The translations under genes were made by a program, and so were the position numbers. From assembly GCA_007133195.1 (NCBI GenBank), contig SLNH01000491.1, positions 1 through 32,770 of the forward strand: DNA of 32,770 nt. Direction: 5' to 3'. Within the stretch, counting starts at the first letter, position 1; every line of letters begins with the position of its first letter. Origin of the DNA: Nannocystineae bacterium. GTDB taxonomy: Bacteria; Myxococcota_A; Polyangia; Haliangiales; Haliangiaceae. The notes below the pieces were generated by a model that searched no databases, was not told the origin of the DNA, and saw only the letters and a program-made list of their open reading frames with translations. This document shows, one piece after another, positions 3,502 through 22,050 of this stretch.

Positions 3502-4557
3502 TTAAAGCTCCGCGATGTGGCGCTCGAACTCGTCACGCGCGCGCGCCCACGCGCCTGCGTGCATCGCGGGAAGGTCGGTTAGCCACGGCAGAAGCTGGGC
3601 GGCGAAGTCCTGCGACGACTCGAGCGGCAAGAGCGAGGGGAGGTTATCGATGGCCGTGACGTCGAGCGGCGGATCGTCGTGTACGCGCAGGGCGGGGGCG
3701 TCCCAGCTCGTGACGCGATCGTAGACCTTGATCGGCGAAAACGCCGAGGTGGGATCGCAGGCGATGTCGCCGATGACGCGCAGGCGGCGCGGTGCGGTCA
3801 CCGCCTCGCCGGACACGAACACCGGGCAACCGGGCTCGGCGAGGATGCAGTTCAAAAAGATTTCGCGCGCCAGGATCTCGGGAAACGGCCCGCCGCCGGC
3901 GGTCTCTTCGACATCCCACTTCGTCACGGGGACGCCGAGCGCTTCGCACAGATCGCTGGCTCCGCGGCCCACGCGCCCGAGCGCCCCGATGATGAGCGCA
4001 TCGGGGCCCGGCGCTCCGGCGGCGGACAGGGACCCTGCCACGTCGGCGCGCAGCGCGTCCTTGTCCGCGTAGGCACCGATCGGGCCGGCGACGGCGCCGC
4101 GGCGCTGAGCCGCGAGACACATGAGCGCCACCGCCGCGCCCGCGTATCCGGCGTAATAGCCGAAGGCGGCCACGCGTCGCCCGCGCTCGTCGACCAAGTA
4201 TTCGAGGTCGTAGAGCACGCCGCCTCCGGCCCGAAACCTGTCGAGCAGCGCTAGGCCAGCGGGCTGGCCCTTGTAGGCGTGCCCGAACATGATGTGCCGG
4301 TGGCGAAGCGGGGTGCCGTCGTCGGGGAGCTCCTTGAGGCCGAACACGATGGCGTCGTCTGGCGCCTGCGAAAAGCTCCCCTCGGGCGCGATGGTGCAGC
4401 CCGCATCGCCGTACGCCCCGATCGGGATGATCCGGCTCGCGCTCTCCTCCACGGTCACGCTGATTCCCCGCGACAGAAGCTCGTGGGCACCGTCGGGGGT
4501 CAATCCGACCCGCCGCTCGCCGCGCCGGGCCTCCGCTCTCACCCAAAGATGTGTCAC
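3502..4557 (-). CDS. Saccharopine dehydrogenase (NAD+, L-lysine-forming), LYS1 type
   Basis: The 351 aa resemble fungal LYS1 over the full length. The N-terminal domain has WVRAEARRGERRVGLTP, FGLKELPDD and FGHAYKGQ, which contain the residues corresponding to yeast catalytic Lys77 and His96 (here Lys75 and His93). Then come LYDLEYLVDERGRRVAAFGYYAGYAGAA, a Rossmann segment IIGALGRVGRGASDL, the NAD-binding KWDVEET, and LPSLLP near the C-terminus. The family interconverts saccharopine with lysine plus 2-oxoglutarate. In a bacterium this may serve lysine breakdown or an aminoadipate-type route, and the direction cannot be told from sequence. The start is GTG 4557, with an AGGG Shine-Dalgarno 7 nt upstream. 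The gene lies 75 bp downstream of threonine synthase on the same strand and is probably co-transcribed with it. No saccharopine reductase or aminoadipate gene is in view. Confidence 0.88.
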   Translation of the reverse strand: MTHLWVRAEARRGERRVGLTPDGAHELLSRGISVTVEESASRIIPIGAYGDAGCTIAPEGSFSQAPDDAIVFGLKELPDDGTPLRHRHIMFGHAYKGQPAGLALLDRFRAGGGVLYDLEYLVDERGRRVAAFGYYAGYAGAAVALMCLAAQRRGAVAGPIGAYADKDALRADVAGSLSAAGAPGPDALIIGALGRVGRGASDLCEALGVPVTKWDVEETAGGGPFPEILAREIFLNCILAEPGCPVFVSGEAVTAPRRLRVIGDIACDPTSAFSPIKVYDRVTSWDAPALRVHDDPPLDVTAIDNLPSLLPLESSQDFAAQLLPWLTDLPAMHAGAWARARDEFERHIAEL

Positions 4558-4632
4558 CGGCGAACCCTACCGCGAAACCAAGTCCACCTGCTGGCCACCG
4601 CCGACCGCGTGAGCCGAGCGCCCGGGCGACCG

Positions 4633-5973
4633 TCAGTCGAGCGGCATGTCGAGGATGCGCCGCACCGCGTCTCGCACGGTCCCCACGTCGTTCGGCAGAT
4701 CGATGGGCGAGTTGGCGTGGGCGGGCGCGGGCACGCGCTCGAGCGTGCGCTCGTGGTATTGCGTCTTGAACTCGGGGAACTTGAGCCCGCTCGCCGTCGA
4801 GATCACGACGACTCGATCGCCCGCCCTGATGGTGTCGTCGGCGACGAGCTTTTCGAGCGCAGCGAGCGCCACCCCGGTGTGGGGGCACGAAAACATCCCG
4901 GCGCGATCCGCGCGCGCCGCCGCGTCGGCAAGCTCGGCCTCGCTCGCCTGCTCTACCCTGCCGCCGGTCGCCTCGAGCGCTCGTATCGCCTTCGTATAGG
5001 ACACCGGGTTTCCGATCTGTATCGCCGACGCGTGGGTCTTTTCGGCTTGCACGGCCTCGAAGCGCTCGAACCCGCGCTGATAGCTCTGGTAGAGCGGATT
5101 CGCCCGTGACGACTGCGCGACACAGATCCGCGGCGCGCGGTCGGCGAGCCCGAGGTCCATCATCATCTTGAAGCCCGCCCACAGGGCCGACACATTGCCG
5201 AGGTTGCCCCCCGGAATCACGACCCAGTCGGGCACATCCCAGTCGAACTGCTGGGCGATCTCGATGGCGACCGTTTTTTGGCCCTCGAGCCGGAGCGAGT
5301 TCATCGAGTTGGCCAGGTACACACCCTCGCGCTCGGTGATCTCGGACACGAGGCGCATACAGCCGTCGAAGTCGGTGTCCACGGCGAGCACGGCCGCGCC
5401 GTTCGACAGCGGCTGAACGAGCTGCGCGGTGCTGATCTTCCCCCGCGGCAGGATGACGATCGAGCGAATGCCCGCCGCGGCCGCGTACGCCGAGAGCGCC
5501 GCGGACGTGTCGCCCGTGGAGGCGCACGCGATCGCCGAGATGTCGCGCCCCTCGGCCATCATCTGCTTGACGGTCGACACCAGCACCGTCATGCCCAAAT
5601 CTTTGAACGAGCCGGTGTGCGAGTTCCCGCACAGCTTGATCCAAAGCTCGCGCAGGCCGAGCTTTCTGCCGTAGCGCTCCGCCCAGAACAAGTTGGTTCC
5701 GCCCTCGAACATCGAGACGACGTTTTCGTCGTCCACGTGCGGCGCGACCCACTCCTTTTTGCCCCACACCCCCGAGCCGTAGGGCCACCGGGTCGACATG
5801 AAGCGCTCGGCGAACAGCTTCTTCCACGCCGCGGGAGACTGCGCTTTGAGCGCGTCTAAATCGTGCGCGACCTCGAGGAGCCCACCGCACCGCGCGCACC
5901 GGTAGTACGGCTGGTTCACGGGGTGTTCGCCCGGACAGCCCGCGATACACCGAAACGCCGCTCGATAAGCCAT
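4633..5973 (-). CDS. thrC: Threonine synthase
   Basis: PLP enzyme converting O-phospho-L-homoserine to threonine. The 446 aa begin with a zinc-ribbon-like cysteine set (Cys9, Cys13, Cys26, Cys29: CIAGC and CARCGG). The fold-type II PLP domain follows: EGGTNLF substrate loop, SFKDLGM with the Schiff-base Lys123, [16 protein letters not shown], the phosphate-binding PGGNLGN loop, and [12 protein letters not shown] near residue 380. This is the longer bacterial/archaeal form with an N-terminal extension. A related aminotransferring or lyase activity is unlikely given the SFKD and CASTGDTS motifs. GGTAGGG abuts the ATG directly, too close for an ideal Shine-Dalgarno, but the cysteine motif begins at residue 9, so a later start would destroy it. 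It lies between an MXAN_5187-like gene (50 bp upstream) and the saccharopine dehydrogenase, forming a likely three-gene operon. Confidence 0.93.
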
Positions 5974-6023
5974 CCCTACCGCACACTAGCCCAGATCACG
6001 CCCGGCGCCCACGACGGCGGCGT

Positions 6024-7166
6024 TCATTTTTTGGGCGTGGCCTTGACCACCACGCGGTTGTCCTTGAGCACCACGTTGAACTCCACGCCCGCCGCCCGGT
6101 GCTCCTTCATGATGCGCGGCGCCTGATCCCGCAGCTTCCCCATGAGCTTGTCGAAGCCCACGTCGCCGTCCGCGCCGACCATGCGCCGCGCCCGCACGTA
6201 CTTGTCGTACAGCACGCGCGCCTTGTCGGCGTCCATCCCCGGCGGCAGATTTGCGCCCCCGCTGTCCTTGGCGGAGGACCGGTCGGACGAACCGGGGCCG
6301 GCTGTGCTCGCCCGCCGCTGCTCGCGGGCGAGCGCCTCGCGAGCCTCGGCCTTGGCAGGCTCCCGCCAACCGCCCTCGGCGGCCGCCTCTGCGGGTCGCG
6401 CCGCCGGGCGCGCTCGTCCCCGGGTAGGCGGCGCAGCCACGTCGCCACTGCCCGGCTCGCGCCACACCGACGCTTCGCCACCGGCATGGGCGCCGTCAGT
6501 TATCACCCGAGCATCCCCATCATCCCCGGCCGCCGGCGCACCGGCGGCGCCCGCCGAGGCGGGCGGCTCCTCCGCCGTGATCGCCGAAAACAGCGCCTCC
6601 ATGTCCGTGTCGAGATCGGCGCCAAGCAGCGGGTCTGACTCATCGATGTGATGGACCTGCGGGTGGTGGACCTGCGACCCCGAACCCTCGGGCCCGCGCG
6701 CCTGGGCCGGCGTCGAAGCCGCCCCCTCGCCACCCTCGTGCCGGCGGGCGAGGCGCTCGCGGTCTCGCATCACCCGCTTGCGCATGAGCGCCGGCATCTT
6801 GGCGAGCACCTCGTCGGGGATCTCCTCGCCGCGCGCGTACGCCCGCCGCTTGACCCGAGCGATGTCCCGCACGTAGGTGCCCTGCTCGATCTGCCGCAGC
6901 ACCCGGTTCCAATAGGTGTTGTACGCGCCGAACCGCTGGCTGAGCGTGGTGAGCCGGTATCGGAGCGCGGTCCTGCGCGGCTGGCGCTGGGTGAGCTCGC
7001 GAATCCCGCGCTCCACCTCCTTGTGGAGCTGGCTCGGCGGGATCTTCTGAATGCCCATGAAGTACTGCTCGTAAAGCCGCTTTAACCGATCGAGGCGACC
7101 CTCGAGGTCGGTGAGGACCTCGTCGAAGTCGGGCCCCTCGTGCTTTGTGGTCGAGCGCAGCGCCAC
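6024..7166 (-). CDS. MXAN_5187-like protein (conserved in myxobacteria), unknown function
   Basis: About 380 aa from GTG 7166, chosen because GAGGA sits 5 nt upstream; a TTG at 7178 is the next possibility. Three parts are visible. Residues about 10-150 are basic and strongly helical (coiled-coil-like LEGRLDRLKRLYEQYF, and YWNRVLRQIEQGTY). The middle part is low-complexity, rich in A, E, G and P. The C-terminal 75 residues are conserved-looking: ADKARVLYDKYVRARRMVG, then FDKLMGKLRDQ, then VEFNVVLKDNRVVVKATP. From memory this last part resembles the MXAN_5187 C-terminal domain of Myxococcus proteins. There is no signal peptide or membrane segment, so it is probably cytosolic. It is the first gene of the minus-strand cluster with thrC and is divergent from the site-2 protease gene. 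The function is unknown. Confidence 0.75.
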   Translation of the reverse strand: MALRSTTKHEGPDFDEVLTDLEGRLDRLKRLYEQYFMGIQKIPPSQLHKEVERGIRELTQRQPRRTALRYRLTTLSQRFGAYNTYWNRVLRQIEQGTYVRDIARVKRRAYARGEEIPDEVLAKMPALMRKRVMRDRERLARRHEGGEGAASTPAQARGPEGSGSQVHHPQVHHIDESDPLLGADLDTDMEALFSAITAEEPPASAGAAGAPAAGDDGDARVITDGAHAGGEASVWREPGSGDVAAPPTRGRARPAARPAEAAAEGGWREPAKAEAREALAREQRRASTAGPGSSDRSSAKDSGGANLPPGMDADKARVLYDKYVRARRMVGADGDVGFDKLMGKLRDQAPRIMKEHRAAGVEFNVVLKDNRVVVKATPKK

Positions 7167-14579: not shown

Positions 14580-14931
14580 CGCGACTCTCTCTTCGTCCTC
14601 TGCGCGGTCCCGCCGCCCCCCTCGCGCGCGCAGACGCGGGGCGCGAGCGGCATCCACCGCCTCGTGGGGACAGCCCGGCTTCGGTGGTCCCTGGGCTCCG
14701 GGGGGTCCGTATGAACCAAGCTGCTCCCTCGCGCAAGATCTCGGGCGTTCTATCGTGGCACAGGACGCCGAACATACCCGGCACTGCGTGGGCGTAGGCG
14801 GGTGCCCGGCTGGTCGCCCGTGTAGCCTGTCCTGCGATGAGAACGCATACCCGGACGGGGAGGTCGTCCGGCCGGAATTGCGCACGGGAATTTTAGTGAG
14901 CTCCAGCATTCGTTATACTTCTGCGCAGACG
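14580..14931. other. Divergent intergenic region
   Basis: A 352-bp gap between the GlmU-like gene (-) and the GGDEF/EAL gene (+). Open frames here are composition artefacts. The only signal I can support is the TATACT element just before 14932. No convincing operator, RNA gene or riboswitch was seen. Confidence 0.5.
14892..14919 (+). promoter_or_regulatory. Promoter candidate for the GGDEF/EAL gene
   Basis: TATACT (14914-14919) is a 5-of-6 -10 hexamer. A weak -35 (TTTAGT, 14892-14897) is 16 bp upstream. The -10 ends 12 nt before ATG 14932 and no Shine-Dalgarno is present, implying a leader of only a few bases. Confidence 0.45.
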
Positions 14932-17382
14932 ATGAGGAGCCACGAGCGACGACGATCTCCGCGGGGCTCCCGCGCCTTTGCCGAGAGCCAAGACCGCCAG
15001 CGCGATCACGGAGGATCCGAGGACGGCTACGACGCGGCGGATTCCGACGGCGGCTCGAGCGAAGCGGCCACGCGCGAAAAGCTCGCGCGGGCCGAGCACG
15101 AGATCGAGGAAATGCGAGGCATGCTCGAGCGCCTCAGCTATCGAGACGGCCTCACGGGGCTGCTCAACCACCGGGCGTTTTGTGAGCGTCTGGACCGGGA
15201 GCTCGCCATCGCCCGCGCGGATGGCGTTCCGCTCTCGGTGCTGTTCGGCGACATCGATCATTTCTCTGCCCTAAACAGCGAGCTCGGCCACGCTTTCGGC
15301 GACGGGGCGCTCGTCGAGGTAGCCACGATCCTGGCTCAAGGGGAGGATCGCGGCGCCATCGCCGGACGCTACGGAGGGGAGGAGTTCGCGGTGCTCCTGC
15401 CGGGCGCGGCGAAGGACGAGGCGGCCATCCGCGCAAACCGCCTTCGCGATCAGATCGCCAAGGAGGCGTTCGCCGGCGGCCGGGCGCTCACCGTGAGCTT
15501 CGGAATCGCAACCTACCCGGACGACGGCGACGATCTGGAGTCGCTCACCCGCTCGGCGGAGTGGGCGCTGCGCGCCGCCAAGCAGAGCGGAAGGAACCGC
15601 GTTCATATCTACCGCGAAGACGAGCCTCCACCGAGCGATCACCACGGGTCCGACGGCTGGCCGGCGAGCGCGCCGACGGGGCGCGACGGCCGTGAGGTCA
15701 GATTCCCATCGCCGCGCGAACGCTTCAGCGTGGTGGCCAGCGCCCTCGAGCGCGACCGGTCCCTAAGCTGCCTGTACATCGATCTGTCGGCGCTGGGCCG
15801 CATCGAAATGGAGCACGGCGTCCCCAAACACGCCGAGGTGCTAGAGCAAGTCGGATTTCTCCTCGAGGCGGCGCGCGGCGAGCGCCTGCGCCGAGACGAC
15901 ATCATCTGCCGGGCCGAGCACGGCGACGCCTACGTCTGCTTCCTGTCCCCATCGCGCACGCGCGCCGCGACGCTCGCCGCCGATTTGGAGCGGGTCGCCG
16001 CGCGGGTCGAAGAGATGCTCGAGCGGGGGCTCGGCAACGAGGTCCACGCGCTCATCCGCGAGCGGCCGCGCATTCCGGTGGGCTTCGCGCGGGTGCTCAA
16101 AAACCCGATGCTGCGAGCCGAGCGCCTCATCGACAGGCTGATCGTTGAGGCCCGCGACGCCGCCGAACTGCAGCGCCAGCGGGCGATGCAGCTCGACAAA
16201 AATTTGGTGCAGGAGATTATCCTGCACGAGCAGGTCGGGCCGGTCTACCAGCCCATCGTCCAGCTGGAGACGGCCGAGATCTTCGGGTACGAGAGCCTGA
16301 GCCGCGGGCCGGCGGACACGGCGCTCGAGTCCCCGGCGGCGCTGTTCACGGTCGCCGACAACGTAGGCCTCACGTTCGAGCTCGACCGAGCGTGCTTCCG
16401 CGGGGCGCTGCGGGGGGCAGTCGGCCTGGAGCCGGTACACAGGCTGTTCGTAAACCTCTTGCCCCTCTCGTTCTACGATCCCTCCTTCATCGAATCGGAG
16501 GTCTCGAAACTTCTGCACGCCGCGGGCCTCACGCCGAGCCATGTCGTCTTCGAGATCACCGAGCGCCTGGCGATCGAAAACTTCAGCTCGTTCCGGCGCC
16601 TTTTGGCCTCCTACACCGAGATGGGCTTCGGTGTGGCCATCGACGACGTGGGCACGCGCCACTCGAACCTCGAATCGGTCATGGCGCTCAGGCCGCAGTT
16701 CATCAAGATCAGCGACATCCTCACGCGCGGCGTGTCGCGCTCCACGGTCAAGCGAGAGATGCTGCGCTCCCTCGGGCGCATCGCGCAGACCATCGACGCC
16801 GTGGTGGTGGCGGAAGGAATCGAGACGGCCGACGATTTGGCCGTGCTGATCGATCTCGGCGTCACCTACGGACAGGGCTTCTTTTTGGGCCGGCCGGGCC
16901 GCGCGTTCCCCGACGTCCCACCCGCGATCCAGCGAAGCGTGCGCGCGCTGTCGCGCACGGGATCGCCGCCGATCCCGGCGCCGCCCGCCGACGCCGACGA
17001 CGATGAGCTGCACCGTCGAGCCTCCTGGACGATCCGCGACGCCGTGCTCGAGCGCGCACACCGCTCGGGCGAGCTCGTGGGTACGGACGGGGAGATGCTG
17101 GCCGAATCGCTCGGCGCGGACGAAGGTGAAGACGCAGACGCAGCGCCGCTCGCCGGTCCCGCGGAGGAGACCACCCCCACCGCGGAGCCGAGGCGGGCCG
17201 GGCGAGCCCTCGAGATGCCCCTCGTCGCGGGAGACGGGAAACCGGTGGCGGACGAGGAACTCGGCGAGCGACGTCCGAACGAAGGCTCGGTCTCGCTCAT
17301 GGAGAGTTTGCGGCTGGGCGACGAGGCATCCGATCCGCAGCTCGAGGAAGAGTCGACCGCCGGGGGTACGGCGAGTCCGTAA
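14932..17382 (+). CDS. GGDEF - degenerate GGDEF - EAL c-di-GMP signalling protein
   Basis: 816 aa, with no membrane segment or sensor domain. Residues about 48-67 are a helix leading into a GGDEF domain (70-225) with an intact RYGGEEF (Gly148-Phe152), Asp107, Asn115 and Asp124. The inhibitory RxxD site is absent (Asp139 and Ala142 stand in its place), so a cyclase would lack product inhibition. Residues about 240-420 resemble a second GGDEF fold in which the signature is replaced by EHGDAYVCF. The EAL domain (430-670) has YESLSR (Glu454), Asn508, Glu541, Asp571-Asp572, Lys592 and Glu631, so phosphodiesterase activity is plausible. The DDFGTGYS loop is altered to DDVGTRHS. The last 140 residues are an acidic low-complexity tail. 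ATG 14932 is chosen by the adjacent -10. The PilU/T-like gene is 36 bp downstream. Confidence 0.9.
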   Translation: MRSHERRRSPRGSRAFAESQDRQRDHGGSEDGYDAADSDGGSSEAATREKLARAEHEIEEMRGMLERLSYRDGLTGLLNHRAFCERLDRELAIARADGVPLSVLFGDIDHFSALNSELGHAFGDGALVEVATILAQGEDRGAIAGRYGGEEFAVLLPGAAKDEAAIRANRLRDQIAKEAFAGGRALTVSFGIATYPDDGDDLESLTRSAEWALRAAKQSGRNRVHIYREDEPPPSDHHGSDGWPASAPTGRDGREVRFPSPRERFSVVASALERDRSLSCLYIDLSALGRIEMEHGVPKHAEVLEQVGFLLEAARGERLRRDDIICRAEHGDAYVCFLSPSRTRAATLAADLERVAARVEEMLERGLGNEVHALIRERPRIPVGFARVLKNPMLRAERLIDRLIVEARDAAELQRQRAMQLDKNLVQEIILHEQVGPVYQPIVQLETAEIFGYESLSRGPADTALESPAALFTVADNVGLTFELDRACFRGALRGAVGLEPVHRLFVNLLPLSFYDPSFIESEVSKLLHAAGLTPSHVVFEITERLAIENFSSFRRLLASYTEMGFGVAIDDVGTRHSNLESVMALRPQFIKISDILTRGVSRSTVKREMLRSLGRIAQTIDAVVVAEGIETADDLAVLIDLGVTYGQGFFLGRPGRAFPDVPPAIQRSVRALSRTGSPPIPAPPADADDDELHRRASWTIRDAVLERAHRSGELVGTDGEMLAESLGADEGEDADAAPLAGPAEETTPTAEPRRAGRALEMPLVAGDGKPVADEELGERRPNEGSVSLMESLRLGDEASDPQLEEESTAGGTASP

Positions 17383-17418
17383 CGACCACCCGGGGCCGGC
17401 GCCCGCCGCGTGACACCC

Positions 17419-18495
17419 ATGGATCAACCGACGTTCAACAAACTTCTCGCGTTCGGCGTAGAGCGGGGGGTCTCCGATATCCACTTCGAGGTCGGTTATC
17501 CGCCGCACTACCGCCTGCACGGCGAGCTGTTGGGGGCCGTCAAGGTCCCGCCCCTCACCGCCGCGGACACGGAGGCGATCGCGGCGATGATCCTCGGCGA
17601 TCGCACGAAGATCGACTTCCACCGCCCGTTCCCGGAAGTCGACATGTCGTATTCCCTCGCCGGCATGGGTCGGTTCCGCGCGTCGATCTTCCGCCAGCGC
17701 GGCTCGGTGGGGATCGTCATGCGGCTGATCCCGTTCGAGGTGCGGGCCGTGGAGGAGCTGAACCTCCCGCCGGTCCTCGGCGAAATTTGCGAGGCGAGGC
17801 GCGGATTGGTCCTCGTGACTGGCGCGACCGGAAACGGCAAGTCGACGACCATCGCCGCGATGATCCGTTACATCAACGAATCACGCCACGCCCACATCCT
17901 CACCATCGAAGACCCGATCGAGTTTCTGTTCGAGCCACAAAAATGCATGATCATTCAGCGGGAGGTCGGGACCGACACCGACAGCTTCCGGGGGGCGGTG
18001 ACCGCGGCGCTCAGGCAGGATCCCGACGTGATCATGGTGGGCGAGGTCCGCGAACAGGATACGGCGGAGACCTGCCTCAAGGCGGCCGAGACCGGGCATC
18101 TGGTGATCTCGGCGATTCACACGCCCGACACCGTGTCGACGATCCAGCGCTACGTGGGCCTGTTTTCCCAAGACTCTCAGGACATCGTGCGCCAGCGGCT
18201 CGGCGACTCCCTTCAGGCGATCATCTCGCTCCGGCTGCTTTCCGGGAAGGAGGGGCGAAGTCGCATTCCCGCGGTCGAGATCCTGCGCGTGACGAGGACG
18301 ATCCGCGAGTGCATTCGGCAAGGACGGCTCGGCGAGCTCCCCGAGCTGATCCGCAAGGGCCGCGATCTGTACAACATGCAGCTGTTCGATCAGCACCTCC
18401 TCGACCTCGCTCAGGCCGGCCTGATCAGCGTAGAGGCCGCCCTGTATGCGTCATCGAACCCCGAGGAGTTCGAGCGCGCGCTCAACCTCGGTTGA
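17419..18495 (+). CDS. PilT/PilU-family type IV pilus retraction ATPase
   Basis: 358 aa from ATG 17419; GTG 17410 would add three residues. The N-terminal domain ([28 protein letters not shown]) is followed by the secretion ATPase core. The Walker A is GATGNGKST (Lys141, with Ala and Asn where PilT has Pro and Ser). Next come [10 protein letters not shown] (Asp box), Walker [10 protein letters not shown] (Glu209) and the His box SAIHTPD (His234). The tail, [18 protein letters not shown] then [12 protein letters not shown], is closer to PilU than to PilT, which has an AIRAGES motif. The protein would power pilus retraction at the inner-membrane base, often as an accessory to PilT. No other pil gene is in the window. 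Its position after a c-di-GMP gene suggests co-expression and regulation of twitching or surface behaviour. Confidence 0.9.
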
Positions 18496-18619: not shown

Positions 18620-19141
18620 TTACGGCTCGTCGAGCTGCTGAAGGAAGCGCTTGAGCAGACCGTCGATCATGAGGTTGCGATCGACGTCGTCGTATCGCCC
18701 GTCACGCCAGCCGTCGTGAAGCTCCTCGTATCGCTCGCGCGCGTCGCCGATGAGCTTTTTGTAGATGCCGACCTTCTTGATGATGTCGCGCTGATTCCGA
18801 ATGAAGTAGGACACGAGCGAGGCGCTCGCCGCGACCGTGAGCACGAGGCCGAGGGGGCCGCCGAGCGCGTATCGGAGGCCGACGCGGAGCGCGACCACCG
18901 TGGCTGCGCCGATCGCCATGTTACGGGTCCCCGCGCCCTGGACCATCGAGTCCTTGGCCATGGCCATGGAGGTCTGCCCGGCGGCGATGAGGAGCGCGAT
19001 GAAATTACCGCGCCGGGATTTCCACCCGCGATCGTAGTATTCGCGGATGGCGACCTTCAGGAAGGAGTCGAAGTCGCGATAGATACTGAGCTCGCGATTC
19101 TTGCCGCCTTCGGGCTCATTGGGAAGCTCTTCTCGGCCCAT
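18620..19141 (-). CDS. Small membrane protein, unknown function
   Basis: 173 aa from ATG 19141. Residues 1-45 are charged and helical (YRDFDSFLKVAIREYYDRGW). Two hydrophobic segments follow at about 75-92 (MAIGAATVVALRVGLRYAL) and 94-114 (PLGLVLTVAASASLVSYFI), with a moderately hydrophobic stretch at 46-60. The C-terminal 60 residues are charged and helical (DIIKKVGIYKKLIGDARERYEELHDGW). The topology suggests a hairpin in the inner membrane with both ends on the same side. No family was recognised. It is divergent from the TPR/metallopeptidase gene across 125 bp. Confidence 0.65.
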   Translation of the reverse strand: MGREELPNEPEGGKNRELSIYRDFDSFLKVAIREYYDRGWKSRRGNFIALLIAAGQTSMAMAKDSMVQGAGTRNMAIGAATVVALRVGLRYALGGPLGLVLTVAASASLVSYFIRNQRDIIKKVGIYKKLIGDARERYEELHDGWRDGRYDDVDRNLMIDGLLKRFLQQLDEP

Positions 19142-19266: not shown

Positions 19267-22050
19267 ATGAAGCGAATCCTCCTCGTGGTCGCCGTCCTCC
19301 TCGGGCTCACCGCCGAGGCCGGGGCCGCAGTCGACCGAGGGGGGGAGCAGTTTTTGCGCGGCGAGTATCAGCTCGCGCGCGAGACCTTCGAGAGCGCGGG
19401 CGCACAAAACGAGGACGAAGCCGCGCTCGCGCTCGCGCGCTTGGACATCCGCGAAGGCGCGTGGGAAGACGCCGCCGCCCGCAGCGAAGCGCTCGTCGAA
19501 TCCGAGGATCCGACCGTGCGAGCGAGGGCGCGCGTCCTGTCCGCCGAGATCGCCTGGCGGACCGGCCAGCGCGTCGCCGCCCGCCGGGAGCTCGAGCCGA
19601 TCGCCGCCACCGGCGAAAGCCTGCGGGCGCGATATCTGCTCGGCCGCGTGCTCCTCGACCTCGGAGAGACGCCGCAGGCAGAGGCGCAATTCGAAGCATT
19701 CCGGCGCGATTGGCACGCCGGCGACATCGATCACGAAGACGCCGAGGCCCTCATGTACGTGGCCCTCGCCGCGCGGCATCTCGCGTCGTTCGAGGAGGCC
19801 AACGACACGTTTCGGGACGCGGTGGCGCTCGATCCCGAGCTCCTCGAAGCCAACATCGAGTGGGGGCACTTGTTTCTCGAAAAGCACGCCGCGGAGCACG
19901 CCAAGGAGAGCTTCGACGAGGTGCTGCAGCGCGACCCTCACCATCCGGCCGCGCACGCCGGCATGGCGGAGGTCCTTCTGGAGAGCAGCTACGACGTCGC
20001 GGCGGCCGCACGCCACCTCGACGAGGCGTTGGCGGTCAACCCGCGCCACGTCCCGTCGCTCCTGCTCCGCGCGACGCTGGCGATCGATCGCAACCACTGG
20101 GAGGCGGCCCACGCGCACCTGGACGAGGTGCTCCGAGTCAACCCGCGGAGCCTCCGCGCGCGATCGCTCAGGGCGGCCATCCATTGGGTGCGCGACGAAA
20201 CCGACGCGTTCGCCGACATCGAACGAGAAGTCTTGGCCAAAAATCCATCCTACGCTGACTTCTACCACGCCGTCGCGCGCTCGGCGGTGCGAGAGCATCG
20301 CTATCGCGAGGCGATCGAGCTCGAAAAGCGCGCCGTCGAGCTCGATCCCGAGGACTATGTCGCCAAGCAAGGGATCGGCATGGGCTACCTCCGGCTAGGC
20401 GATGAGGCCGAGGGCCTGTCCTGGCTGCGGCGGGCCTGGGCCGGCGATCAATACAATGGCCGCACCTACAACACCCTCGAGCTATTCGAGGAAACCATCC
20501 CGGAGTCGTACGACTTCGTAGAATCCGACAACATCGTCTACCGCTACCACGAGGCCGAAGAACCGATCCTGCGGCGCTACGTCGAGCCGCTCGTCGAGCG
20601 GGCGTACGACGACATGTCCGAGCGCTACGACTTCGAGCCTGAGGGTCCCATCACCATCGAGCTGTTTCGCGATCCAAAGGATTACAGCATCCGAACCACG
20701 GGCCTGCCGAACCTCGGCGCCCACGCCGCGTGTTTCGGCCGCGTGATCACCGCGGTGTCTCCGACCCGAGGCGAGGTCAACTGGGCGATGGTGCTGTGGC
20801 ACGAGATGGCGCACGTCTTCGCCCTTCAAATCTCGAATTCGCGCGTGCCAAGGTGGTACACCGAGGGCCTCGCGGAGTACGAGACCATGCGCGCGCACCC
20901 CGCGTGGCGGCGCGAGCACGACGCCGATCTCTACGCGGCGCTCGAGGAGGGCGCGCTCCCGTCCGTGGCGGACTTAAACCATGACTTCCTGAAGCCCAAT
21001 GGAAGCGACGTGATGATCGCTTACCACCACTCCGCGCTCGTCATCGCCCACCTCGCGCGCCACTACGGCTTCGACGAGGTCGTGCGTGGACTCGAGCTGT
21101 TCGCGGAGGGCCACGAGACCGACGAGGTGATCCGAGCGATCACCGGCCAGTCGATCGCCGCCTTCGACGCCGCCCTACACGACGAGCTGCGAGAGCGCCT
21201 CGAGCGCTACGAGGGGACGTTCCAGCTCCCGTTCGCGGCTGCGGGCGACGTCCACGAGTTAGGCCGACGCGCGCGGCACAGCCCGGATGACCCGGAGGCG
21301 CACGCCCAGCTCGCGCTCGGCCAATTTTTTAGCCGAAACGCGCGCGCCGCCCGGGCCGCCGCCGCGCGGGCGCTCGAGCTCGACGAAGACCAGGCGCTCG
21401 CCCACTATGTCGAGGGCGAGCTCCGGCTGCGCCGGGGCGACCTGCGCGGCGCCGCGCGCCGCTACCGGGCGATCCTCGAGGGCGGGACCGACGGCTTCGA
21501 CGTGCGCACCCGCCTGGGCTCCATCGCCGCCCGGCGAGGCCACAGCCGCGAGGCCCAGAGACAGTTTTGCAAAGCCAAGCGGCTCGATCCCGAGCGCTCG
21601 CTGCCGTATCGCGCGCTTTATGAGCTCTACCGGGACGAAGGGTGGGACGAGGAGGCGCTCCGCGAGCTCGAGGGCTACGTCATGCGCGAGCAGGCGGAAT
21701 TCGAGCCGGCGAAGGCGCTCGCCGAGGGCTACGCAGAGCTCGAGGCGTGGGGTCGTGCGCGGCGCTACGGCGAGCTCGCGCGCGACATCGACCCCAGCGA
21801 CGGCGAGCTGCTCATGGTTCTCGGCGAGGCGTATCTGCGCGAGGACGAGCCCGACAAGGCGCGCCACAGCTTCGAGAGCGCGCGCATCGCCGAGCCCGAT
21901 TTCGAGACCTCTTCGCGGGCTCACGTCGGCGAGGCGCGAGCGCTGCGCGCCATGGGCGAAGACTCGCTCGCGCGCGAGGCTGCCGAGCGGGCGCTCGAGG
22001 CGGATCCGGACAGCCGCAGCGCCCGCGCCTTGTTGGACGAGCTCCGCTAA
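19267..22050 (+). CDS. Exported TPR protein with embedded gluzincin (peptidase MA-like) domain
   Basis: 927 aa. The signal peptide is MKRILLVVAVLLGLTAEAGA, cleaved near residue 21. Residues about 25-400 are TPR-type helical repeats (for example EAHLDEVLRVNPRSLRARSL and AIELEKRAVELDPEDYVAKQ). Residues about 420-640 form a gluzincin-like domain with HEMAH (His512, Glu513, His516) and a downstream TEGLAEYE, in which Glu533 fits the third zinc ligand. This is the layout of DUF1570/peptidase MA proteins. Residues about 670-927 are a second TPR array (RRARHSPDDPEAHAQLALGQ through ALEADPDSRSARALLDEL). The protein probably acts in the periplasm or at the cell surface, with TPR arms binding substrates or partners. 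The substrate is unknown. Its stop codon overlaps that of the convergent histidine kinase gene. Confidence 0.85.
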   Translation: MKRILLVVAVLLGLTAEAGAAVDRGGEQFLRGEYQLARETFESAGAQNEDEAALALARLDIREGAWEDAAARSEALVESEDPTVRARARVLSAEIAWRTGQRVAARRELEPIAATGESLRARYLLGRVLLDLGETPQAEAQFEAFRRDWHAGDIDHEDAEALMYVALAARHLASFEEANDTFRDAVALDPELLEANIEWGHLFLEKHAAEHAKESFDEVLQRDPHHPAAHAGMAEVLLESSYDVAAAARHLDEALAVNPRHVPSLLLRATLAIDRNHWEAAHAHLDEVLRVNPRSLRARSLRAAIHWVRDETDAFADIEREVLAKNPSYADFYHAVARSAVREHRYREAIELEKRAVELDPEDYVAKQGIGMGYLRLGDEAEGLSWLRRAWAGDQYNGRTYNTLELFEETIPESYDFVESDNIVYRYHEAEEPILRRYVEPLVERAYDDMSERYDFEPEGPITIELFRDPKDYSIRTTGLPNLGAHAACFGRVITAVSPTRGEVNWAMVLWHEMAHVFALQISNSRVPRWYTEGLAEYETMRAHPAWRREHDADLYAALEEGALPSVADLNHDFLKPNGSDVMIAYHHSALVIAHLARHYGFDEVVRGLELFAEGHETDEVIRAITGQSIAAFDAALHDELRERLERYEGTFQLPFAAAGDVHELGRRARHSPDDPEAHAQLALGQFFSRNARAARAAAARALELDEDQALAHYVEGELRLRRGDLRGAARRYRAILEGGTDGFDVRTRLGSIAARRGHSREAQRQFCKAKRLDPERSLPYRALYELYRDEGWDEEALRELEGYVMREQAEFEPAKALAEGYAELEAWGRARRYGELARDIDPSDGELLMVLGEAYLREDEPDKARHSFESARIAEPDFETSSRAHVGEARALRAMGEDSLAREAAERALEADPDSRSARALLDELR

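Follow-up and report, generated by a model that had tools for sequence, protein, structure and literature searches.

A GGDEF–EAL family regulator gene and a PilT-like ATPase gene form a conserved pair in one bacterial order and are a candidate pilus-motor control unit

Results

Two adjacent genes in a Nannocystineae genome

We analyzed a stretch of 32,770 nucleotides (the window), contig SLNH01000491.1 (C167 in our numbering) of the Nannocystineae bacterium assembly GCA_007133195.1, a 5.64-Mb draft genome that is 99% complete and 4.4% contaminated. The subject of this study is a pair of neighbouring genes on its forward strand. Gene 1 encodes a protein with a GGDEF domain (GGDEF1), a second, degenerate GGDEF-like region (GGDEF') and an EAL domain; gene 2 encodes an ATPase of the PilT/PilU family. 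The coordinates of these features are collected in Table 1. A first-pass annotation, made from the sequence alone, had described a dual GGDEF/EAL protein coupled to a PilU-type retraction ATPase that begins 36 bp later on the same strand with no promoter in between. The spacing is correct provided that gene 2 starts with the ATG at 17419; an in-frame GTG at 17410 is an alternative, and most ortholog matches start at or near 17419. A consensus scan also agrees with the annotation in that it reported no promoter-like or terminator-like site in the 36-bp gap; its sole promoter-like match lies at 16193, within gene 1. The reading frame of gene 1 is open back to 14380, and the ATG used is the one at 14932.

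Membership of the gene 2 product in the family is clear. It scores 401.6 bits against TIGR01420, the model for the PilT/PilU family of type IVa pilus ATPases (cut-off 319.1 bits), over residues 9-353. Among the matches listed in a public scan, the nearest named one comes from a Kofleriaceae metagenome-assembled genome (MAG), with 76% identity over the ATPase; according to a taxonomy look-up Kofleriaceae are a family of the Haliangiales, Myxococcota, and the order examined below is probably Haliangiales.

The gene pair is conserved in one order

We searched for the ATPase in 56 genomes, including the window genome, and for the GGDEF'–EAL half of gene 1 in the 35 genomes at the level of the order. 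Conservation in relatives, which the first-pass annotation had named as a check of its proposal, was found: 31 of the 35 order genomes have gene 1 and the ATPase as immediate neighbours in the same orientation. Thirty of these pairs were read from coordinates (G000-G008, G010, G011, G013-G030 and G032; a contig end truncates the ATPase of G022 and of G027). The remaining one, in G009, is recognized on a contig that begins inside the tail of gene 1, directly before the ATPase. A gene 1 ortholog is present in 33/35 order genomes, 32 by search and G009 by its tail, and was not found in G012 and G033; in G033, a genome of 1.6 Mb, neither gene 1 nor the ATPase ortholog was found. Of the 32 genomes that carry an ATPase ortholog, 31 have gene 1 in front of it, and the gap between the two genes ranges from -1 to 136 bp at the 23 loci measured.

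The strength of this association can be gauged in two ways. Protein clustering of 17 neighbourhoods, all picked for holding gene 1 or the ATPase and some with flanks shortened by contig ends, gave 8/17 for the commonest other neighbour family. As a base rate, a gene 1 match at E 1e-5 or better within flanks of up to 5 kb occurred at one of 79 other PilT-like loci (the best 80 loci of the ATPase search minus L036). Judged from gene order, these data show a conserved pairing of gene 1 and the ATPase, at close spacing, in one bacterial order. Among the matches listed by a search of the main text of open-licence papers, no title or abstract start described such a pair.

The single base-rate hit is in a Thermoanaerobaculales MAG of the Acidobacteriota (L051), where a GGDEF match at 4127-4699 stops about 300 bp before a same-strand PilT-like gene at 5001-6044; this is perhaps an independent pairing. 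Relatives of the ATPase with about 62% identity occur in G039, G043 and G051 without gene 1 alongside, and the ATPase clade may be older than its pairing with gene 1. At another locus, in G042, a GGDEF match (L141, 1141-1620) lies about 3.4 kb upstream of a sister-clade ATPase.

The ATPase is a distinct PilT-like paralog

A search of the Protein Data Bank (PDB) returned PilT matches down to E 1e-87, and the best matches were the sequences of PilT crystal structures. Six full-length PilT chains scored 277-297 bits, compared with 246 bits for PilU and 222 bits for 10my, which is labeled as PilT/PilU family or PilT. All of the motor motifs are present, namely Walker A (GX4GK[ST]), Walker B (Dh4GE) with its glutamate, the Asp box and the His box; the Walker consensus was taken from an excerpt of PMC6762196. 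The first-pass annotation had called the Ala/Asn Walker A of this motor unusual. That view was abandoned, since the motif fits GX4GK[ST] and its variation says little about mechanism. A tally over the ATPase loci found GATGNGK[ST] in all close orthologs read but one (GSTGNGKSS in L025), so that the Asn is common to this group; elsewhere in the family both positions are variable, and the Ala at position 2 occurs, for example, in PilU of Acinetobacter (GATGTGKS).

Next we consider the position of the ATPase in a quick maximum-likelihood tree of 113 rows, in which the deep forks are weak. The window ATPase falls in a clade of 29 rows with a support of 100 in the SH-like approximate likelihood-ratio test (SH-aLRT). 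It is outside a clade of 57 rows (SH-aLRT 98) that holds PilT from Geobacter, Aquifex and Acinetobacter as well as the window genome's own PilT. The one PilU row of the tree, from Acinetobacter, clusters with a further two rows (SH-aLRT 90) and not with the clade of the window ATPase. Relative to the branch leading to the main PilT clade, the PilU group and the window clade share one side of the tree, with weak forks between them. In place of the AIRNLIRE motif of canonical PilT the window ATPase reads TIRECIRQ, and the members of its clade have TIREC[IV]R or close variants. AIRNLIRE is also absent from PilU, as stated in an excerpt of PMC6762196. Thermus PilT lies outside the 57-row clade and does not have AIRNLIRE, and therefore the boundary of what is called PilT is not sharp.

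The gene upstream of the window ATPase is gene 1 and not pilT, which pilU often, though not always, directly follows. The "PilU-type" label of the first-pass annotation gains support neither from the PDB scores nor from this tree, although with its single PilU row and weak deep forks the tree would still allow a kinship with PilU. Together, these sequence comparisons show a distinct PilT-like paralog that makes up its own subfamily of the PilT/PilU retraction-ATPase family. The same genome encodes, on contig C261, a PilB-PilT-PilC-like cluster with a canonical PilT and a PilS-like kinase; the PilC match in this cluster is below the NCBIfam cut-off and above that of Pfam.

One further record deserves a comment of its own. 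NZ_CP104448.1 (L175) is a 4.09-Mb Acinetobacter baumannii record filed as a plasmid and contains two adjacent PilT/PilU-type genes, assigned as pilT and pilU from gene order and Walker A because the record is unannotated there. This record could be a chromosome filed under a wrong label, or else a cointegrate.

Gene 1 belongs to a REC–GGDEF–GGDEF'–EAL family

Most gene 1 orthologs exceed the window protein in length and start with a REC domain, followed by GGDEF, GGDEF' and EAL. Pfam reported REC in four of the five orthologs scanned (G030, G031, G034 and L036; not G002) and no PAS domain in these or in the gene 1 protein. A REC profile was built from 16 orthologs; G032, G001 and G002, which looked degenerate, were left out, and contig ends truncate another two rows. 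Nineteen orthologs, among them G022, G031 and G034 from outside the profile, scored 206-301 bits, while G032 scored 66, G001 43, G002 9 and the window protein -2.5 bits.

A mis-set start could in principle hide a REC domain upstream of 14932. A six-frame search of the window with the profile gave no REC domain (top hit E 0.25, at a distant site). With tblastn, eight REC regions gave at best 21.9 bits (E 0.02) between 13000 and 15200; the 60 residues of this match lie at about 14693-14872, in another frame than gene 1. Shuffling the same stretch in codon blocks equalled or beat this score in 13 of 30 trials. Because the profile finds no remnant and the upstream matches are at the level of chance, the REC domain of the window copy was most likely lost rather than hidden by the choice of the start.

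The first GGDEF domain has the intact GGEEF signature that the first-pass annotation had reported, in agreement with the active-site pattern GG[DE]EF. The RxxD inhibition site is common in active GGDEF cyclases and is not known to be required in them. Its absence, also reported at first pass, holds for the window copy, which reads RGAI there; it is mainly a trait of this copy, because RxxD occurs in 22 of the 23 other orthologs that cover the site, G031 being the exception. Since most relatives have both REC and RxxD, their absence is largely local to the window copy. The cyclase signature itself is variable. Across 24 orthologs it reads GGEEF in 7, SGEEF in 10 and AGEEF in 2; the remaining 5 deviate further (GGQEF, SGASF, GGEEV, DGDSF and SGEQF). 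A further-altered signature occurs in 3/4 orthologs with a degenerate or missing REC compared with 2/19 with an intact REC; these orthologs are not phylogenetically independent, and a link between decay of REC and decay of the cyclase is not leaned on here.

Pfam itself reports only the first GGDEF in the gene 1 protein. The second one was correctly recognized at first pass as degenerate: it has HGDAY at the signature position, and its profile aligns with that of the first (hhalign probability 96.6%, E 7e-10, 130 columns), whereas the probability of a match with the EAL domain is 0.7%. By its domain order, the window protein is a trimmed member of a REC–GGDEF–GGDEF'–EAL response-regulator family.

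The EAL domain is constrained and non-standard

The first-pass annotation had stated that the EAL domain keeps its metal and catalytic residues. This is right for the positions E, N, E..E, DD, K, EGxE and Q in the window protein, and the metal ligands, K, EGxE and Q are kept in 25/25 orthologs. It does not extend to the KxD motif, in which Ser replaces Asp in all 25 orthologs. The unusual loop 6, DDVGTRHS, was read correctly and is a feature of the whole family, with DDVGTRHSNL in 22/25 and DDVGTKHSNL in 3/25. The canonical loop 6 is of the DFGTGYSS type, as is visible in the PDB alignments, and the gene 1 family therefore does not have the full signature of an active EAL domain (KxD together with such a loop). 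In an out-group of 16 Myxococcota proteins, mostly short GGDEF'–EAL proteins, neither gene 1 version of loop 6 was found; their loop 6 is mostly nearer to the canonical form, and KxD is present in 16/16.

These short proteins, mostly of about 420-490 residues, are 30-40% identical to gene 1 over GGDEF'–EAL, and most are too short to hold REC and GGDEF1 as well. The ATPase match was absent at the 17 loci fetched for them. A second GGDEF'–EAL protein of the window genome itself (423 residues, contig C112, L149 5032-6303) is about 38% identical; it keeps KxD (IKIDM) and has IDDAGTGYASL as loop 6.

An excerpt of PMC9683572 lists an Asp that matches the KxD position by spacing among the c-di-GMP (cyclic di-GMP)-binding residues and describes loop 6 as essential for dimerisation; loop 6 is needed for activity in an excerpt of PMC5845226. 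The EAL domain is at the same time the best conserved of the three regions, with a mean pairwise identity of 0.78 compared with 0.58 and 0.57 for the other two. From this we infer a constrained, non-standard domain which would be c-di-GMP-binding or weakly catalytic.

The acidic C-terminal tail of the protein contains a short motif related to LMESLR in 19/25 orthologs including the window copy, a count that excludes two matches lying in the EAL domain (G002 and G031). Nineteen of the 25 also end in [LIF]N. A conserved docking motif as a universal feature of the tail was rejected, since both elements are absent from G030 and G032, which do carry the pair; for the same reason the tail motif is only a lead.

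Neighbouring genes

MshEN is a c-di-GMP-binding domain known from ATPases of type IV pili and type II secretion systems. Separate proteins of the MshEN family are encoded near gene 1 in 5/17 neighbourhoods (confirmed by Pfam for G002, G034 and G032). They fit a c-di-GMP theme at this locus and are possible adaptors of the motor.

On the opposite strand upstream of gene 1 is a gene with Pfam matches to nucleotidyl-transferase and hexapeptide domains, which we take to be GlmU-like. After the gene pair follow a 173-residue protein without a Pfam match (18620-19141, reverse strand) and a 927-residue TPR/Peptidase_MA protein (19267-22050, forward strand), both of which recur near the pair in G002 and G030. 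At nine loci searched (L117, L116, L123, L127, L130-L132, L036 and L148) a divergently transcribed gene pair is present upstream of gene 1. One of its proteins, with a weak HATPase match, presumably has a REC-like start, and the other is, we assume, STAS-like with a zinc ribbon. This divergent pair was not found at the window locus, which lacks REC as well. A 59-residue match to the HATPase homolog is present at the end of contig C112 of the same genome, the contig which also encodes the second GGDEF'–EAL protein.

Table 1. Positions of the features of the gene pair in the window and of selected genes near gene 1 orthologs
Feature	Position	Strand	Basis
Gene 1 coding sequence, GGDEF–GGDEF'–EAL protein, 816 residues	14932..17382	+	Open frame from ATG to stop; Pfam GGDEF and EAL
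TATACT, -10-like hexamer, 12 bp 5' of gene 1 start codon	14914..14919	+	By eye only; not reported by consensus scan
GGDEF domain 1, residues 70-223	15139..15600	+	Pfam 143 bits; alignments
RGAI at the RxxD site of most orthologs, GGDEF domain 1	15349-15360	+	Alignments
GGEEF signature of GGDEF domain 1, residues 148-152	15373-15387	+	Alignments
Degenerate GGDEF-like domain 2, residues about 258-420	15703..16191	+	hhalign to domain 1; alignment
HGDAY at signature position of GGDEF-like domain 2	15919-15933	+	Alignment
EAL domain, residues 427-655	16210..16896	+	Pfam 163.9 bits
EAL loop 6, DDVGTRHSNL	16642..16671	+	Ortholog alignment
K-I-S at KxD position of EAL (Asp to Ser)	16705..16713	+	Ortholog alignment
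Acidic low-complexity C-terminal tail of gene 1 protein	16897..17379	+	Sequence
LMESLR short motif in gene 1 tail	17296-17313	+	Ortholog tails
Intergenic gap, 36 bp	17383..17418	+	Sequence; consensus scan
Gene 2 coding sequence, PilT/PilU-family ATPase, 358 residues from ATG 17419	17419..18495	+	TIGR01420; PDB PilT matches
Walker A of gene 2 ATPase	17821..17847	+	Sequence
MshEN protein near gene 1, G002	L181 12987-13733
MshEN protein near gene 1, G032	L184 7067-8044
MshEN protein near gene 1, G003	L185 1540-2298
MshEN protein near gene 1, G006	L178 15502-16281
MshEN protein near gene 1, G034	L186 12137-13039
Divergent gene pair, G030	L117 1264-2253 and 673-1152		Weak HATPase match in one protein

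Discussion

The adjacency of gene 1 and the ATPase in 31/35 order genomes supports a functional unit with a motor of the pilus-retraction family, and the pair is a good candidate for a dedicated pilus-motor control unit. We propose that both genes would be read as one transcript and that the gene 1 protein would be a FimX-like receptor, passing a c-di-GMP signal to the pilus motor encoded by gene 2; built on sequence and on the analogy with FimX, this proposal has about an even chance of being right. The degenerate GGDEF'–EAL half would bind c-di-GMP with little or no hydrolysis, as in FimX, and would signal to the motor either by contact or via an adaptor. The REC–GGDEF half would be the input module, which in most relatives may provide local c-di-GMP synthesis under the control of phosphorylation and of RxxD feedback. 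In the window genome this input would have been cut back, with REC and RxxD gone and GGEEF kept; the cyclase, if still active, would run without phospho-control and without product inhibition at RxxD. As an output, the recruitment or the activity of an accessory retraction-type motor would shift with the level of c-di-GMP.

The resemblance to FimX is partial. According to an excerpt of PMC8389850, FimX binds c-di-GMP and has the domain order REC-PAS-GGDEF-EAL, in which REC, GGDEF and EAL are degenerate. Like the gene 1 family, it is a multi-domain protein with REC, GGDEF-like and EAL parts linked to a type IV pilus ATPase, and the EAL motif changes of gene 1 seem compatible with binding of c-di-GMP without hydrolysis. 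In contrast to FimX, the gene 1 family has no PAS domain reported by Pfam and has a second GGDEF region. Its first GGDEF usually looks catalytic, with degeneration of REC or GGDEF1 in some members and of GGDEF' and the EAL signature in all those read. The target of FimX is the extension ATPase PilB, reached by way of PilZ in Xanthomonas (PMC8389850 and PMC5595344, excerpts), whereas gene 1 is linked to a PilT-family gene. Compared with the PilT/PilU retraction ATPases, gene 2 shares all motor motifs and differs in its clade, its GATGNGK Walker A, its TIREC[IV]R motif and gene 1 as its upstream neighbour. With the c-di-GMP-gated ATPases of the MshE/PilB type the likeness is control of a type IV pilus motor by c-di-GMP, which is only proposed for our pair; these ATPases carry MshEN, and Pfam reports none in gene 2.

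Several observations weigh against this proposal. P. aeruginosa FimX binds PilB, and no interaction between FimX and PilT was seen in the experiments excerpted from PMC5595344, so that direct contact with a relative of PilT has no precedent there. The two genes are not strictly inseparable: G012 (82% complete) has the ATPase with a GlmU-like gene next to it and yielded no gene 1 ortholog elsewhere, and G031 and G034 carry gene 1 without an ATPase ortholog. Because these two unpaired copies share the same EAL changes, the changes need not have arisen with the pairing. GlmU-like, CoA-transferase, SCP2 and TPR genes also recur nearby in some relatives, and inherited gene order thus accounts for part of the adjacency. 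Most catalytic positions of the EAL domain are intact, including the catalytic-base motif EGxE, and the scheme in an excerpt of PMC12900916 grades an EAL domain with an intact catalytic base as uncertain and not as inactive. Finally, an AlphaFold model of gene 1 from a two-sequence input had a mean pLDDT (predicted local distance difference test score) of 35.7 and gave no structural support.

The EAL domain also bears on the question of whether gene 1 is a bifunctional local switch, in which GGDEF1 would synthesize c-di-GMP next to the motor, EAL would break it down there, and the local pool would be sensed by the motor or its neighbours. The GGEEF of the window copy and the metal ligands, K, EGxE and Q of all orthologs suit such a switch, as do the nearby MshEN proteins; furthermore, there are EAL domains of class II that function despite a partly deviating signature (PMC12900916, excerpt). 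However, the KxD Asp is lost and loop 6 altered in 25/25 orthologs, and it is the EAL half which is best conserved, while the cyclase signature is altered in 5/24, not counting the 12 with Ser or Ala at the first Gly. The domains described by the first-pass annotation as a dual GGDEF/EAL protein are indeed there; its dual enzyme switch is doubtful because of the two family-wide changes in EAL active-site motifs and the altered cyclase signatures. We consider a bifunctional switch rather unlikely, and the FimX-like receptor is favoured over it because the EAL changes are found in all 25 orthologs.

It is unlikely that the two genes merely share an operon, with gene 1 feeding a global c-di-GMP pool and no mechanistic link to the ATPase. 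The three genomes in which they occur apart and the recurrence of parts of the surrounding gene order would agree with simple co-transcription. However, gene 1 precedes the ATPase in nearly every genome that has the latter, the commonest other neighbour family reaches 8/17 neighbourhoods, and a gene 1-type neighbour is rare at other PilT-like loci. Quite unlikely is a third explanation, that the ATPase serves another filament or surface machine controlled by gene 1 and not type IVa pilus retraction: its position outside the main PilT clade, its TIRECIRQ motif and the separate PilB-PilT-PilC cluster of the genome would allow this, but the TIGR01420 cut-off is exceeded by 82 bits, all of the motor motifs (Walker A, Asp box, Walker B Glu, His box) are in place, and the PDB sequences that the ATPase matches best come from PilT crystal structures.

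The FimX-like receptor proposal can be taken one step further. A former cyclase/phosphodiesterase, its EAL domain refitted in this lineage by the GTRHSN loop 6 and the change from KxD to KxS, might have become a receptor that directly gates a dedicated PilT-family motor; this stricter version is doubtful. The direct c-di-GMP inputs to type IVa-like pili described in the literature excerpts hit extension motors, MshE and PilB2 themselves and PilB via FimX. What would be new here is a FimX-like control whose genetic link is to a PilT-like motor and not to PilB. If true, this would place c-di-GMP control on the retraction side of the type IV pilus, as a mirror image of FimX–PilB. An excerpt of PMC7096442 (2020) left an effect of c-di-GMP on PilT-driven retraction, independent of the extension motor, for further work. 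A receptor-like protein whose gene accompanies that of a retraction-family ATPase in most examined genomes of one bacterial order would offer a concrete pair of proteins for this question.

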